In this document: in pieces, positions 12,139-53,567 of the stretch
Layout of the letters: every line of letters starts with the position of its first letter
Position numbering within the stretch: position 1 is the first letter of the stretch
DNA from: an uncultured Oscillospiraceae bacterium
GTDB taxonomy: Bacteria; Bacillota; Clostridia; Oscillospirales; Oscillospiraceae
DNA length: 64,000 bases
Assembly: GCA_949841355.1 (NCBI GenBank)
Contig: CATKZP010000008.1
Coordinates: forward strand, 1-64,000
Direction: 5' to 3'
Position numbers and translations under genes: made by a program
The notes under the pieces: model-generated
What the model was told of the DNA's origin: nothing
Seen by the model: the letters and a program-made list of their open reading frames with translations, nothing else
The model's database searches: none

Positions 12139-13404
<1,266 letters not shown>

Positions 13405-23015: not shown

Positions 23016-23110
23016 AGCTAACATTCCAGGCGTGTCAAACAGGGCGGCGGGGCGGGATGGACGGAAAAAAGCGCGAAGAGCCGGCGTCGCCGCCGGACGG
23101 TTCAACACAC

Positions 23111-23217
23111 CTTCTTCGAATCCAGACTATGACTGTCGGTTTTGGAATTGCGCCAAATCAGCGCTTTCGCGCTCGCGGACTGTACCGCCGATCGGGAATT
23201 TCACCCTGCCCTGAAGA
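23111..23217 (-). ncRNA. FMN riboswitch (RFN element)
   Basis: The minus strand carries the conserved RFN blocks in order: TCTTCAGGGCAGGGTGAAAT, CCCGATCGGCGGTA, the CCGCGAGC block followed by a variable GCGC-GAAA-GCGC stem, GATTTGG with ATTCCAAAACCGACAGT, and AGTCTGGAT-x-GAAGA. The six-stem junction can be drawn by eye. It controls ribU downstream. Confidence 0.97.
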
Positions 23218-23243
23218 CATCACCATGTTCAGTTGTCCCCAAG

Positions 23244-48333: not shown

Positions 48334-48362
48334 TTGACAGGCGGGAGGGAGAAATATATAAT
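48334..48362 (+). promoter_or_regulatory. SigA promoter of cutC
   Basis: Perfect TTGACA and TATAAT hexamers are separated by 17 bp, 30 bp before cutC. Confidence 0.92.
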
Positions 48363-48392: not shown

Positions 48393-49145
48393 ATGGGAAG
48401 GATTCTGCTTGAGGTGTGCTGCGGCAGCGCGGACGACGTGATCGAGGCCCACCGCGGCGGGGCGGACCGGGCGGAGCTGAACTGCGACCTGTTCCACGGC
48501 GGGCTCACCCCCACGCTGGGGTCCCTGCTGGTGGCCAAGCGGGAGACGGGAATGAAAATCATCGCCATGGTGCGCCCCCGGGAGGGGGGGTTCTGCTACA
48601 CCCAGGCGGAGTTCGCCGCCGCGGTGGAGGACGCGAAGCTGCTGCTGGACCACGGGGCGGACGGGCTGGCCTTCGGCTTCCTCCGCGAGGACGGCACGGT
48701 GGACGCGCAGCGCACCGGCGCACTGGCCCAGCTGTGCCGGGAGCGGGGGAAGGAGCCGGTGTTCCACCGGGCCATCGACGTGACCCCGGACTGGCGCGGG
48801 GCGCTGGATACGCTCATGGAGCTGGGGGTGGCCAGGGTGCTCACCAGCGGGCAGCAGTCCAGCGTCCCCCTGGGGGCGGACACCATCCGGCAGATGCTGG
48901 AATACGCCGATGGGCGCATTGAGATCCTCCCCGGCGGCGGCGTCAACGCCCGGAACCTGGAGTGGGTGGCCGCCCAGACCGGCTGCACCCAGCTGCACAT
49001 GTCGGGCCACACCGTCCGGACCGACCCCTCCGCCCGGAACGACCGGGGCATCCACTACGGCGGCTGCCTGTACCCCCCGGAGGACAGCTATAAGGTGGTG
49101 GACGGGGCGTATGTCGCCGGAGTGGCGGCGGCGCTGAAAAAATAA
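48393..49145 (+). CDS. cutC: CutC family protein
   Basis: The 250-residue TIM-barrel protein has the CutC signature ILLEVCCGSADDVIEAHRGGADRAELN at its start (residues 4-30), MVRPREGGFCYT, VFHRAIDV and the C-terminal LHMSGHT. CutC was linked to copper tolerance in E. coli, but the molecular role is unsettled; do not assume a role in copper handling here, since the csoR-copA locus is 12 kb away. GGAGG precedes the ATG. It is followed at once by a new promoter. Confidence 0.93.
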   Translation: MGRILLEVCCGSADDVIEAHRGGADRAELNCDLFHGGLTPTLGSLLVAKRETGMKIIAMVRPREGGFCYTQAEFAAAVEDAKLLLDHGADGLAFGFLREDGTVDAQRTGALAQLCRERGKEPVFHRAIDVTPDWRGALDTLMELGVARVLTSGQQSSVPLGADTIRQMLEYADGRIEILPGGGVNARNLEWVAAQTGCTQLHMSGHTVRTDPSARNDRGIHYGGCLYPPEDSYKVVDGAYVAGVAAALKK

Positions 49146-49149
49146 GGGC

Positions 49150-49178
49150 TTGACAATCCCCGGGGAAAGGGATATACT
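49150..49178 (+). promoter_or_regulatory. SigA promoter of the leader peptide and ABC exporter
   Basis: Perfect TTGACA and TATACT are separated by 17 bp, about 40 bp before the leader ORF. Confidence 0.9.
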
Positions 49179-49218
49179 TGTCAACGCTGTGAAAATGTAT
49201 AGAAAGGAGGCGCGCGAT

Positions 49219-49302
49219 ATGCTGAATACTCTATTTGTGGGCAAGAAGAACGCAGGCAGTATGGGATTGTTGGGATATTTGCGCGCCTTGGGGATGGAGT
49301 AA
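49219..49302 (+). CDS. 27-residue leader peptide of the ABC exporter operon
   Basis: This short ORF has a very strong ribosome-binding site (GAAAGGAGG, 8 nt before ATG) and encodes 27 residues starting MLNTLFVGKKNAGSMG, mildly hydrophobic and basic, ending in LRALGME. It lies between the promoter and an intrinsic terminator, and is not part of a longer frame. The layout is like bmrB ahead of bmrCD in B. subtilis, where ribosome stalling on the leader by translation-targeting antibiotics permits read-through. The 3' codons GGGATGGAG can pair with CTTCCATTCCC just downstream (49309-49319). Confidence 0.75.
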   Translation: MLNTLFVGKKNAGSMGLLGYLRALGME

Positions 49303-49335
49303 TCGGGCTTCCATTCCCGGTCATTTTGGTATGCG

Positions 49336-49366
49336 GCGTCCCTTCTGTCCAGAAGGGGCGCTTTTT
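49336..49366 (+). terminator. Attenuator terminator ahead of the ABC exporter
   Basis: An 11-bp stem GCGTCCCTTCT / AGAAGGGGCGC (49336-49346 with 49351-49361, loop GTCC) is followed by TTTTTG. It lies between the leader ORF and the exporter genes and would block them unless bypassed. Confidence 0.85.
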
Positions 49367-49391
49367 GCGTCCATGAGGAAAGGAGAAGTGT

Positions 49392-51233
49392 ATGGAATCA
49401 CAAACCAAACTGTCCGGGCGGGAAAAGACCGGGCTGATCCTGCGGTACCTGCGGGGCTGCTGGGGCTTTTTCGCCGCGTCCATTCTGCTGGCCTGGATGA
49501 ACACGGTGTGTAACGCCCTGGTGCCCCAGATCATCAGCTTTACCGTGGACTCGGTGCTGGGGGGCGAGGTCCCCGACCTGCCGGGCTTTCTGCGGGGATT
49601 GATCCCGCTGGACCGGCTGCGGGCCGATCCGCTGCCCTTTTTGTGGTGGGCGGCGGCGGGGGTGGCGCTGGCGGCGGCGGCGCGGGGCGTGTGCATTTAC
49701 GGTATGCGCGTCAACCTGTCCAAGGGGTCCGAGGGCTTTGTGAAGAGCCTGCGGGACGGCCTGTACAGCCATATCCAGCGCCTGAGCTTTCAATGGCACA
49801 CCGCCCACGCCACCGGCGACATCATCCAGCGGTGCACCTCCGACGTGGAGGTCATCCGCACCTTCGTCTGCAATCAGCTGATGGAGGTGGTGCGCACGGT
49901 GTTCCTCATCGTGCTCTACTCCTCCATCATGGTGGCCATGAACTGGCGCCTGGCCATGGTGTCGCTGGCCTTTATCCCCATCTCACTGCTGGCCTCGTGG
50001 GTGTTTTACGGCAAGATATCCCACCGGTTCAAGGCTGCGGACGAGGCGGAGGGCGAGCTGACCACCTGCACCCAGGAGAACCTCACCGGCGTGCGGGTGG
50101 TGCGGGCGTTCGGCCGGGAAAAATTTGAGATCGACCGGTTTGGCGAGAAAAACGACCACTTTTCCGCCCTCTGGGTGGAGCTAGGCAAGCTGCTCAGCGT
50201 CTACTGGGCGTCAGGGGCCTTCCTCACCGCCGCCCAGGTGATGGCGGTGATCGTGGCCGGGACGGTGGAGGCGGTGAACGGCGGGCTCTCCCTGGGCGAC
50301 TTCCAGGCCTTCGTCATCTACAACAGCGCCATGGCGTGGCCGGTGCGGTCGCTGGGCCGGGTGCTGTCCGACATGAGCAAGGCGGGGGTGTCCCTGGACC
50401 GGGTGGGCTATATCCTCCAGGCCGACGAGGAGAAGGACGGCCCGCAGGCCGGGACCGCCCGCTTGTCCGGCGACATCGCGTTCGACCACGTCACCTTCGG
50501 CTACGAGGGGCAGCAGGTGCTGCGGGACGTGTCCTTCACCATCCCCTGGGGGTCCACCTTCGCCATTCTGGGGGGCACCGGGTCGGGCAAGTCCACCCTG
50601 GTCCACCTGCTGGACCGCCTCTATGACCTGGGGGAGGGCCAGGGGAGAATCACCGTGGGCGGCACGGACATCCGGGACATCCCCCGGGAGGAGCTGCGCC
50701 GCCAGATCGGCCTGGTGCTCCAGGAGCCATTTTTGTTCTCCCAGACCATCCGGGAGAACATCGCCGCCACCCGGCCGGACGCCGCGGAGGAGGAGCTGCG
50801 CGCCTGCGCCCAGATCGCCTGCGTGGACGAGGCCATTGCCGAGCTGGCCGACGGCTGGGACACGGTGGTGGGCGAGCGGGGCGTCACCCTGTCCGGCGGG
50901 CAGAAGCAGCGGGTGGCCATCGCCCGGATGCTGCTGCAAAACGCGCCGGTGATGGTGTTCGACGACTCGCTGTCCGCCGTGGACGCGGAGACCGACGCAA
51001 AGATCCGCGCCGCGCTGAAGCAGCGTATGGCGGACGCCACCGTCATCCTCATCTCCCACCGGGTGACCAGCCTGATGCAGGCCGACCGCATCCTGGTGCT
51101 GGACGGGGGCCGGGTGGCGGACGAGGGAACCCACGCCGAGCTGGTGAGCCGCCCGGGCATCTATAAGGAGATCTACGACATTCAGATGAGCAGCGACGAC
51201 AGGGCGCTGGTGGAAGAAAGGGGGGAGGCGTAA
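49392..51233 (+). CDS. ABC exporter half-transporter, degenerate-site subunit
   Basis: The 613-residue protein has six membrane helices (about residues 25-330) and a C-terminal ATPase domain with Walker A GGTGSGKST, signature LSGGQKQR, and Walker B VMVFDDSLSAVD. The catalytic Glu after Walker B is Asp (F-D-D-S), as in the BmrC-type subunits of heterodimeric multidrug exporters. Its intact LSGGQ would complete the active site of the next gene product. GGAAAGGAG precedes the ATG. The stop overlaps the next start by 1 nt. Confidence 0.94.
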   Translation: MESQTKLSGREKTGLILRYLRGCWGFFAASILLAWMNTVCNALVPQIISFTVDSVLGGEVPDLPGFLRGLIPLDRLRADPLPFLWWAAAGVALAAAARGVCIYGMRVNLSKGSEGFVKSLRDGLYSHIQRLSFQWHTAHATGDIIQRCTSDVEVIRTFVCNQLMEVVRTVFLIVLYSSIMVAMNWRLAMVSLAFIPISLLASWVFYGKISHRFKAADEAEGELTTCTQENLTGVRVVRAFGREKFEIDRFGEKNDHFSALWVELGKLLSVYWASGAFLTAAQVMAVIVAGTVEAVNGGLSLGDFQAFVIYNSAMAWPVRSLGRVLSDMSKAGVSLDRVGYILQADEEKDGPQAGTARLSGDIAFDHVTFGYEGQQVLRDVSFTIPWGSTFAILGGTGSGKSTLVHLLDRLYDLGEGQGRITVGGTDIRDIPREELRRQIGLVLQEPFLFSQTIRENIAATRPDAAEEELRACAQIACVDEAIAELADGWDTVVGERGVTLSGGQKQRVAIARMLLQNAPVMVFDDSLSAVDAETDAKIRAALKQRMADATVILISHRVTSLMQADRILVLDGGRVADEGTHAELVSRPGIYKEIYDIQMSSDDRALVEERGEA

Positions 51234-53062
51234 TGGCGGCCTTTGACGAGAAAGAGTATACAAAATCCTTTGACTGGGCCATCTGGAAGCGGCTGCTGCC
51301 CATTCTGGGCCGCTACAAGAAGTTCATCGCGGGAATGGTGCTCATCAACAGCCTCACCGCCGTGGTGGACGTGGCTCTTCCCCTGTTCCAGAAGTACGCC
51401 ATCGGCCACTTCATCGAGAAGGGGACGCTGGACGGCCTGCCCATATACGCGGCGGCCTACCTGGCGGCCATTGTGCTGCAGACGCTGATGGTGGTGGGCT
51501 TTGCCCGCCGGGCCATGTATGTGGAGATGTACCTGGGCCGGGATATGCGGCGGGACCTGTTCCGGCATTTGCAGACCCTCTCCCTGTCCTTCTACAACGT
51601 CACCCCGGTGGGCTACCTCATCACCCGGGTGATGAACGACACCAACCGCATCGCCGGCAATATCGCCTGGAGCTTGACGGATATGGCCTGGGCGGTGCTG
51701 TACGTGCTCAGCGCCTTCGGGGCCATGCTGCTGCTCAACTGGCGGCTGGCGCTGGTGGTCATCCTCATCGTGCCGGTGGTGGCGGCGCTGACGGGCTGGT
51801 TCCAGCCCCGCATCCTCCACTGGAACCGCAAGGTGCGCAAGCTCAACTCCAAAATCACCGGCGCCTTCAACGAGGGCATCACGGGAGCCAAGACCTCCAA
51901 AACCCTGGTCATCGAGGACCAGAGCATCAAAAACTTCCGGGAGCTCACCGACACCATGCGGGGCTCCGGCGTGCGGGCCTCCCGGCTCAACGCGGTGTAT
52001 ATCCCGCTGACGCTGTTTTTCTCCACCCTGACGGTGGCCATCGTGCTGCTGCGGGGAGGCTATCTGGTGGCGGACCAGGTGCTGGACATCGCCACCCTGG
52101 CGGCGTTCATCTCCTACGCCATGGGCATATTCGAGCCCATCCAGATCACCGCCGCCAATCTGGCGGAGTTCATCGCCCTTCAGGCGTCCATCGAGCGGGT
52201 CACCGACCTGCTCAACGAGCAGCCCCAGATCACCGACACCCCCGAGGTGGCGGAGAAGTACGGCGACAGCTTCGACCCCAAGCGGGAGAACTGGGAGCCG
52301 CTGAAGGGCGAGATCGAGTTCAAGGACGTGACCTTCCGCTACCCCGACGGCGGGGACAACGTGCTGGAGCACTTCAACCTCCACATACCCGCGGGCACCA
52401 CCGTGGCTATCGTGGGGGAGACGGGGGCGGGCAAGTCCACCCTGGTGAATCTGGCCTGCCGCTTCTTCGAGCCCACCCAGGGCCAGATTCTCATTGACGG
52501 CCGGGACTACCGGGAGCGCAGCCAGCTCTGGCTCCACTCCAACATCGGCTATGTGCTGCAAAGCCCCCACCTGTTTTCCGGCTCCGTCCGGGAGAATATC
52601 CGCTATGGCCGGCTGGACGCCTCCGATGCCGAGATCGAGGCGGCGGCCCGGGCGGTGTCGGCGGACAAGGTGGTGGCCAAGCTGGAGCAGGGCTGGGACA
52701 GCGACGTGGGCGAGGAGGGCGACCGCCTGTCCACCGGCGAAAAGCAGCTGATCTCCTTTGCCCGGGCGGTGCTGGCCGACCCGCGCATCTTCGTGCTGGA
52801 CGAGGCCACCTCCTCCATCGACACCCAGACCGAGCAGTATATCCAAAGCGCCATCGACCACCTTCTCCAGGACCGCACCTCCTTCCTCATCGCCCACCGC
52901 CTGTCCACCATCCGCAAGGCGGATATGATCCTGGTGGTGCGGGACGGAAAGATCGTGGAGCAGGGCACCCACCAGTCCCTGCTGCGGGCCCACGGCTACT
53001 ATCATGACCTCTACAGCAAGCAGTTTGCCGAGGAGAACGCGGCCAAGGTGCTGGGGGCATAA
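51233..53062 (+). CDS. ABC exporter half-transporter, catalytic-site subunit
   Basis: This 609-residue protein has six membrane helices and an ATPase domain with Walker A GETGAGKST, Walker B IFVLDEATSSID (catalytic Glu present) and the altered signature LSTGEKQL. The residues complement those of the first subunit, so the pair should form one consensus and one degenerate ATP site, the hallmark of heterodimeric exporters such as BmrCD or LmrCD. It starts within TAATG and ends 16 nt before the NUDIX gene. Drug export is the likely role; the substrate is unknown. Confidence 0.94.
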   Translation: MAAFDEKEYTKSFDWAIWKRLLPILGRYKKFIAGMVLINSLTAVVDVALPLFQKYAIGHFIEKGTLDGLPIYAAAYLAAIVLQTLMVVGFARRAMYVEMYLGRDMRRDLFRHLQTLSLSFYNVTPVGYLITRVMNDTNRIAGNIAWSLTDMAWAVLYVLSAFGAMLLLNWRLALVVILIVPVVAALTGWFQPRILHWNRKVRKLNSKITGAFNEGITGAKTSKTLVIEDQSIKNFRELTDTMRGSGVRASRLNAVYIPLTLFFSTLTVAIVLLRGGYLVADQVLDIATLAAFISYAMGIFEPIQITAANLAEFIALQASIERVTDLLNEQPQITDTPEVAEKYGDSFDPKRENWEPLKGEIEFKDVTFRYPDGGDNVLEHFNLHIPAGTTVAIVGETGAGKSTLVNLACRFFEPTQGQILIDGRDYRERSQLWLHSNIGYVLQSPHLFSGSVRENIRYGRLDASDAEIEAAARAVSADKVVAKLEQGWDSDVGEEGDRLSTGEKQLISFARAVLADPRIFVLDEATSSIDTQTEQYIQSAIDHLLQDRTSFLIAHRLSTIRKADMILVVRDGKIVEQGTHQSLLRAHGYYHDLYSKQFAEENAAKVLGA

Positions 53063-53078
53063 TTTGCGAGGTGAAAAC

Positions 53079-53567
53079 ATGGAACTTTGGGATGCGTATG
53101 ACAAGGACTTTCAAAAAATCCCGGGCAAAACCCTGGTCAGAGGGGAGTCCATCCCCCAGGGACTGTACCATCTGGTGTGCGATGTGATCGTCAGGCACGC
53201 CGACGGCGCCTACCTGCTGATGCAGCGGGACCCGCGCAAGCCCTGGGGCGGTATGTGGGAGGCCACGGCGGGCGGCTCCGCCCTGGCGGGGGAGACGCCG
53301 CTGGAGTGCGCCGCCAGGGAGCTGCGGGAGGAGACGGGCATTGTGTCCACGGACCTGACGCAGGTGGGCACGGTGATCGCCCCGGAGAATTGCGCCATCT
53401 ATGTGGAGTTTCAGTGCGTCACCGATTGGGACAAGGGGGCGGTCACGCTCCAAGAGGGCGAGACCGTCGATTTCCGATGGGTGAGCCGGGACGAGCTGCT
53501 GGGCATGAAAGAGGATGAGCTGGTGACGAAGCGGATGCAGCAGTTCCTTGAGGAACTGAAGCGGTAA
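53079..53567 (+). CDS. NUDIX hydrolase
   Basis: The 162-residue protein has a full NUDIX box, G-x5-E-x7-REL-x-EE-x-G-I (GSALAGETPLECAARELREE then TGI) near residues 64-86. The N-terminal part KTLVRGESIPQGLYHLVCDV and the QRDPRKPWGGMW segment are like those of many small NUDIX pyrophosphatases (NTP or nucleotide-sugar hydrolysis). The substrate cannot be assigned. GAGGTG precedes the ATG at 53079. It follows the exporter genes by 16 nt and is probably in their operon. A terminator follows. Confidence 0.9.
   Translation: MELWDAYDKDFQKIPGKTLVRGESIPQGLYHLVCDVIVRHADGAYLLMQRDPRKPWGGMWEATAGGSALAGETPLECAARELREETGIVSTDLTQVGTVIAPENCAIYVEFQCVTDWDKGAVTLQEGETVDFRWVSRDELLGMKEDELVTKRMQQFLEELKR

Follow-up and report, generated by a model that had tools for sequence, protein, structure and literature searches.

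The two-gene ABC exporter encoded in the window (the whole stretch of 64,000 nucleotides that was analysed, from an uncultured Oscillospiraceae bacterium) is preceded by a conserved, putative leader-ORF transcription attenuator. It is somewhat probable (roughly 0.55) that this leader is a ribosome-controlled attenuator of four segments, with A being the Shine-Dalgarno (SD) arm, B the 3' end of the leader ORF, and C and D the two arms of an intrinsic terminator. The main structure of the leader is a helix between the SD and the ORF end (P1), which had been overlooked in an earlier sequence-only reading of this DNA.

Architecture of the locus

The leader region is approximately 245 nt long and lies between a CutC-family gene (48393-49145) and the exporter (49392-53062). 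The features are as follows:

49150-49178, + strand: sigma-70-type promoter TTGACA-17-TATACT, consensus at 11 of 12 positions
49203-49215, + strand: segment A, SD arm AAAGGAGGCGCGC, candidate antiterminator strand; 49209-49215 is the 5' arm of P1
49219-49302, + strand: leader ORF of 27 codons plus stop (ATG at 49219, stop at 49300-49302), whose length changes in frame among relatives, where the peptide is weakly constrained
49281-49287, + strand: segment B (GCGCGCC), forming the 3' arm of P1 close to the ORF end; P1 cells are 98.5% paired, with own-versus-cross p<5e-5
49290-49318, + strand: P2, hairpin across the stop codon (GGGATGGAG / CTTCCATTCCC), from the minimum-energy fold (own-versus-cross p<5e-5)
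49335-49366, + strand: intrinsic terminator and T run, with covarying arms; segment C 49335-49346, segment D 49351-49362
49392-51233, + strand: ABC exporter half 1, BmrC/YheI-like (matches YheI, 7m33_C)
51233-53062, + strand: ABC exporter half 2, BmrD/YheH-like (matches YheH, 7m33_D)
53070-53567, + strand: NUDIX-domain gene (PF00293) adjoining the exporter downstream, perhaps co-transcribed in the same operon

The promoter and the 27-codon ORF with its very strong SD (AAAGGAGG, ahead of the ORF) were already recognized in the sequence-only reading and are borne out here; the predicted product of the ORF is MLNTLFVGKKNAGSMGLLGYLRALGME. The terminator that it described also stands, with a hairpin (49335-49362) of 12 pairs and not 11, followed by TTTT and starting 32 nt past the leader stop codon. 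The 211-nt leader folds better than all of 200 shuffled versions (z -3.4), and in its minimum-energy fold GGGGATGGAG (49290-49299) pairs with CTTCCATTCCC (49308-49318). The pairing proposed for the last codons (GGGATGGAG with CTTCCATTCCC) is thereby recovered, but not its role as an alternative to the terminator: P2 does not overlap the terminator and the two coexist, so P2 is ruled out as the antiterminator. Pairing of the SD with the ORF end (off) versus pairing of the SD or the ORF end with C (on) would be better candidates for the switch.

The PDB matches of halves 1 and 2 include BmrC/YheI and BmrD/YheH of B. subtilis, respectively, with many ABCB-type exporters outscoring YheI and YheH (best 60 of 250 and 255 matches). 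Walker B, judged by eye, reads Asp-Asp in half 1 and Asp-Glu in half 2, a pattern that we take to be that of heterodimers with one degenerate site. Elsewhere in the window, a perfect 12/12 promoter (TTGACA-17-TATAAT, 48334-48362) precedes the cutC-family gene. The Rfam scan of the window gave an FMN riboswitch (23105-23222, - strand, 100 bits), outside the leader, as its sole match above the curated threshold, while at E up to 5 positions 49100-49450 gave three matches, every one far under threshold.

Conservation upstream of exporters

The contig scan with exporter half 1 yielded 42 loci, among which 21 are close (66-89% identity), with intact upstream DNA in 19. The sequence-only reading had made its proposal depend on the ORF and terminator being kept upstream of orthologous exporters; both were present, together with an SD, in 18 of these 19 (ORFs of 24-56 codons). 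L027 (67% identity) is the sole exception, lacking a leader of this kind according to the script's SD pattern. With BmrC/BmrD-like halves and a layout kept upstream of orthologs, the central claim of that reading, a leader-ORF attenuator ahead of a heterodimeric exporter, is supported. At the 21 distant ABC loci (L030-L050, 23-33% identity), no detector match having P1 was obtained, and the detector gave seven candidates without it. Of the 19 leaders obtained through exporter homology, counting that of the window, 16 have the promoter TTGACA-17-TATACT; another has TTGACA-17-TAGACT, and in L019 and L025 a weaker pair with 19-nt spacing was chosen by the script.

A covariance model, R1, was built from the close-ortholog leaders. 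Across 42 genomes of the genus, the leader was found in 33 (R1, E up to 0.01) and the exporter in 32 (E up to 1e-150); 31 genomes have both, eight have neither, and three have a single one. Leader and exporter are adjacent in 30 of the 31 genomes having both. Contig ends account for all three discordant genomes: in G018, the exporter starts at base 3 of its contig, and in G016 and G023 the leader contig ends shortly past the leader, without an exporter match. In the genome to which the window belongs, R1 has a single strong match, the next best having an E of 0.13.

Two irregular arrangements were observed. In G029, 959 nt devoid of any exporter match come after the leader (L132), and then a minus-strand ORF begins that by eye resembles a transposase. 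The exporter lies on another contig, in a locus ending 73 nt upstream of it; the separation is perhaps due to an insertion between them. In L125 and L126 (G022 and G040), tandem leaders at about 1235 and 1508 precede one exporter, each with its own SD, ORF, and terminator, as attenuators in series.

The detector for SD, ORF, and terminator returned 47 distinct candidates in 562 kb (the window and the fetched loci), which is not a genome-wide rate since most of this DNA was fetched for its resemblance to the finding. The SD pairs with the ORF end in 40 of the 47, and three first-order Markov copies of the same 562 kb gave no candidates. The leader layout is not a product of chance, and the counts are not independent, as the leaders are related.

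Covariation of the leader helices

P1 joins the SD arm GGCGCGC to GCGCGCC near the ORF end and is often extended toward the start codon. In the 19 leaders of the covariation test, which were gathered via exporter homology and not via P1, 98.5% of its cells are paired, with changes on both sides at three of the seven pairs (for instance GGCGCAC/GTGCGCC and GGCGTGC/GCACGCC), whereas slid-partner controls gave 27-69% pairing. For P1 and the terminator jointly, four of five measures were reached by none of 500 shuffles, while 38 of the 500 reached the fifth (further pair types). A table of 40 leaders that was chosen by P1 was hence not used as a test of it.

Pairing energies of each leader's own arms were also compared with those of arms crossed between leaders, in 34 of the 40 leaders picked as SD, ORF, and terminator (the near-duplicates L010 and L028, as well as L068, L077, L078, and L083, were excluded; L070, L073, and L075 were retained). 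P1 has an own energy of -22.8 versus -19.1 kcal crossed (p<5e-5), and P2 reached the same significance (p<5e-5), whereas a control region gave p 0.90.

Proposed ribosome-controlled switching

In the proposed mechanism, when no ribosome lingers on the leader, A would pair with B as P1, P2 would form alongside, and C would pair with D, so that transcription stops before the exporter. A ribosome lingering over approximately the last 10 codons as C emerges would cover B and free A, and the freed A could capture C before D exists, letting RNA polymerase read into the exporter. Were the ribosome stopped at the start codon instead, B would be the strand set free, and it may also pair with C. Translation of the leader, this direction of on and off, and slowed ribosomes as the signal, for example through ribosome-targeting drugs, are what we infer.

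The SD arm AAAGGAGGCGC resembles the 3' arm of the terminator. To model capture of C, the transcripts of 33 exporter leaders, ended at the 3' end of C, were folded under a ribosome mask of 29 nt. These leaders were drawn from the 40-leader set (from which the duplicates L056 and L074 had been removed beforehand), with L068, L070, L073, L075, L077, L078, and L083 left out as not ahead of an exporter; the exporter match was found earlier for 31 of the 33 and later for L061 and L059 (the L059 match spans 52 residues, up to where the contig ends). Without a ribosome, the mean probability of C:A was 0.20. With one, it was 0.42 (codon 4), 0.23 (codon 11), 0.39 (middle of the ORF), 0.66-0.70 (10 to 2 codons ahead of the stop), and 0.53 (last step). 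With the ribosome six codons before the stop, it was 0.68 for the real leaders versus 0.13 with flipped terminator arms and 0.23-0.26 with other terminators (37 distinct from 50, three having been removed as possible leader terminators), and the real value exceeded the flipped one in 31 of 33. In the window leader, C:A rose from 0.01 without a ribosome to 0.83 with one at the ORF end. A further 15 related leaders, which are the new peptides from 32 loci, gave 0.51 versus 0.14 flipped, the real value being higher in 12. Five leaders failed the flipped test, namely, L029 and L059 in the first set and L128, L131, and L132 in the further set. The modelling thus supports capture of C by A under masking of B and before synthesis of D.

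This behavior is not uniform in the folding. A pairs with C already without a ribosome in some leaders (0.88 in L063), and the same P1 is accompanied by no A:C in the Met-rich leaders L078 and L083. The window leader also reaches a C:A of 0.76 with the ribosome at codon 4, where A is partly freed, so the ORF end is not the sole sensitive place. The coevolution of A with C is weak (p 0.03 in the 34 leaders, 0.065 in a hand-thinned 28, 0.14 with flanks), and A:C covariation was set aside as proof of the switch.

A rather doubtful alternative places the event at the start side: a drug-stalled ribosome, or a queue, near the start codon would cover A, and the freed B would pair with C as the antiterminator, making P1 an anti-antiterminator and the SD just its blocking strand. 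B:C does better than A:C in the own-versus-cross comparison (p 0.002, 34 leaders), and with a ribosome on the start codon C:B is 0.56 in the 33 leaders versus 0.31-0.32 with control terminators; in Met-rich leaders before metN, a candidate antiterminator suggested by sequence and folding lies just 3' of B. However, C:B exceeds its flipped-terminator value only slightly (0.56 versus 0.41, and 0.47 versus 0.36 in the 15 further leaders), and the first codons, by eye, have no common motif except a loose M-x-[KN]-[TI] start.

For the four-segment attenuator, the duplex energies in the window are -21.0 kcal for A:B, -17.3 for A:C, and -21.5 for C:D. Once the whole leader is made, C:D has a probability of 0.93-0.98 under every mask tried (0.97 with the ribosome six codons before the stop); thus, with C:D dominant at equilibrium, A:C could act only kinetically, by forming first. 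The same dominance of the complete terminator, together with the weak A:C coevolution and the fact that P1 would block the SD and the start codon, is compatible with P1 being a device of translational autocontrol that closes the SD after the first ribosome, next to a terminator of fixed efficiency that is blind to translation. We regard this as unlikely, as the 5' arms of the terminators are more complementary to A than controls are and the ORF stop is kept 19-36 nt before the terminator in the 40 leaders, a set picked as SD, ORF, and terminator (the gap is 41 nt in L086). Termination in E. coli stayed at about 90% when the stop codon lay 28 bp ahead of the terminator (PMC4824070), so with gaps of 19-36 nt a ribosome at the stop codon should not directly block the hairpin.

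Peptide versus RNA

The leader ORF varies between 20 and 63 codons across the 40 leaders, and in five of the 40 in the P1-selected table the P1 arm is read in a different frame. The mid-ORF pN/pS, pooled over 11 related pairs (two of which are non-exporter leaders), is 0.64, a rough value since the pairs overlap. Such weak conservation of the peptide argues against a sequence-specific arrest peptide, and a conserved arrest peptide was rejected as the main reading on these grounds and on the frame shifts of the P1 arm. The Arg-Leu-Arg motif of the RLR macrolide-arrest peptides is absent from the window peptide and, by eye, from all 19 exporter-homology leaders; it is present, also by eye, in the leader peptide of L063. 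The retained frame and stop position speak for leader translation. Conservation of the RNA folds far exceeds that of the peptide. This suggests a switch sensing the presence of a ribosome on the leader, and the switch would depend on such occupancy and not on any one peptide. That better-conserved RNA could also be expected of a new type of ligand-binding riboswitch with an incidental ORF, but this is very improbable, given a leader without an Rfam match, a conserved helix made of the SD and the ORF end around an ORF of 20-63 codons with no evident conserved pocket, and an ATG retained in the leaders listed.

SD/ORF-end leaders ahead of other genes

R1 matches in the family and the order show the SD/ORF-end layout also before non-exporter genes:

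L078, L083: Met-rich leaders before a MetN-like ATPase (family search, below cut-off)
L089: leader before HflX
L091, L103: leaders before GNAT acetyltransferases
L070, L073, L090: leaders before PF09818 ATPases
L068: leader before a LytTR response regulator

P1 is weak in L073 and L068 and was judged by eye alone in L088-L091 and L103. At the family level, R1 matched 53 places in 51 of 400 genomes (E up to 0.1), with loci obtained for 30 and none for 23; the parser found no leader in six of the 29 new loci (L064, L065, L069, L076, L079, and L082), and yet L064 and L065 precede an exporter. At the order level, there were 37 places in 35 of 394 genomes, seven without a locus, and the 26 new loci comprised nine with a leader and 17 with none by the parser. 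Misses are expected, as the parser requires an SD, an ATG, and a T run. The strict pattern AAGGAGGCGGACA...TTTGTC matched in two of 394 genomes, both at known loci.

Several of these leaders have peculiarities of their own. In L078 and L083, the terminator 5' arm can pair with a segment lying just 3' of the SD/ORF-end helix; their specificity would be that of a classical codon sensor. L068 and L075 are long (63 and 53 codons) and have a common SYTxLRxxGxT...GxTLS-like peptide. L070 and L073 have GGCGGACAA-type SD arms, in which GGAGGCGG matches the terminator 3' arm of L073. The PF09818 ABC-class ATPases behind L070, L073, and L090 are of unclear role, and their leaders are short. A general hflX regulon was also considered and rejected: hflX occurs in 106 of 147 genomes, and a relaxed detector on 30 loci plus the window's own hflX found two candidates in the 31 stretches (L176 and L179), both TTG-start ORFs unlike the design. 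The window HflX gene (12214-13224) is without a leader of this kind.

It is possible, as a tentative generalization, that the leader's SD is an antiterminator strand locked by its own ORF end, so that the device reports the presence of a ribosome with any peptide, and that this design has been reused in the order before unrelated genes. Should the four-segment model prove correct, the leader would be a compact ribosome-occupancy sensor with no need for a drug-specific arrest peptide, placed before multidrug-type exporters in mostly uncultured, gut-type bacteria, and it would explain how such exporters could respond to many unrelated translation inhibitors. A short ORF whose end is complementary to the SD arm, with a terminator some 20-40 nt later, gives a signature with which more such switches can be searched for.

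Comparison with known systems

In trp-type leader-peptide attenuators, mutually exclusive RNA segments are read by a ribosome on the leader ORF. The leader described here resembles them in this respect but differs in that its segment 1 is the leader's own SD and in that no run of regulatory codons was seen in the exporter leaders.

The hflXr leader rli80 of Listeria (PMC6310831) and uORFC-6-1 before hflX (PMC8632094) likewise hold a small ORF within alternative structures or covarying RNA and, going by the available portions of both reports, precede an antibiotic or ribosome-rescue target. Their peptides carry Arg-Leu-Arg, unlike the window peptide; those portions describe no SD/ORF-end helix, and the structure of uORFC-6-1 lies wholly downstream of the start codon, unlike P1 with its SD arm. 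The ABC-leader of Lactobacillus gasseri and L. johnsonii is similarly a predicted attenuator before a multidrug export operon of Gram-positive bacteria; the accessible part of its report describes neither a leader ORF nor an SD helix, which sets it apart by description and not by sequence (PMC2965389). Among the matches listed in a literature search of titles and abstract starts, with few subscription journals, neither this leader nor an SD/ORF-end attenuator was named for the group.

A close parallel is the bmrB leader of bmrCD in Bacillus subtilis, for which the consulted part of the report gives ribosome-mediated attenuation with drug induction shown (PMC4191407). Both place a leader ORF and a terminator ahead of a BmrC/BmrD-type exporter. 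In bmrB, the terminator is inside a 53-aa ORF, whereas here it lies 32 nt past the stop, and that part of the text describes no SD/ORF-end helix, in contrast to P1 (PMC4191407). A drug-sensing role is plausible for the present leader, which would work like bmrB without being a member of it, having a different layout and the helix P1.
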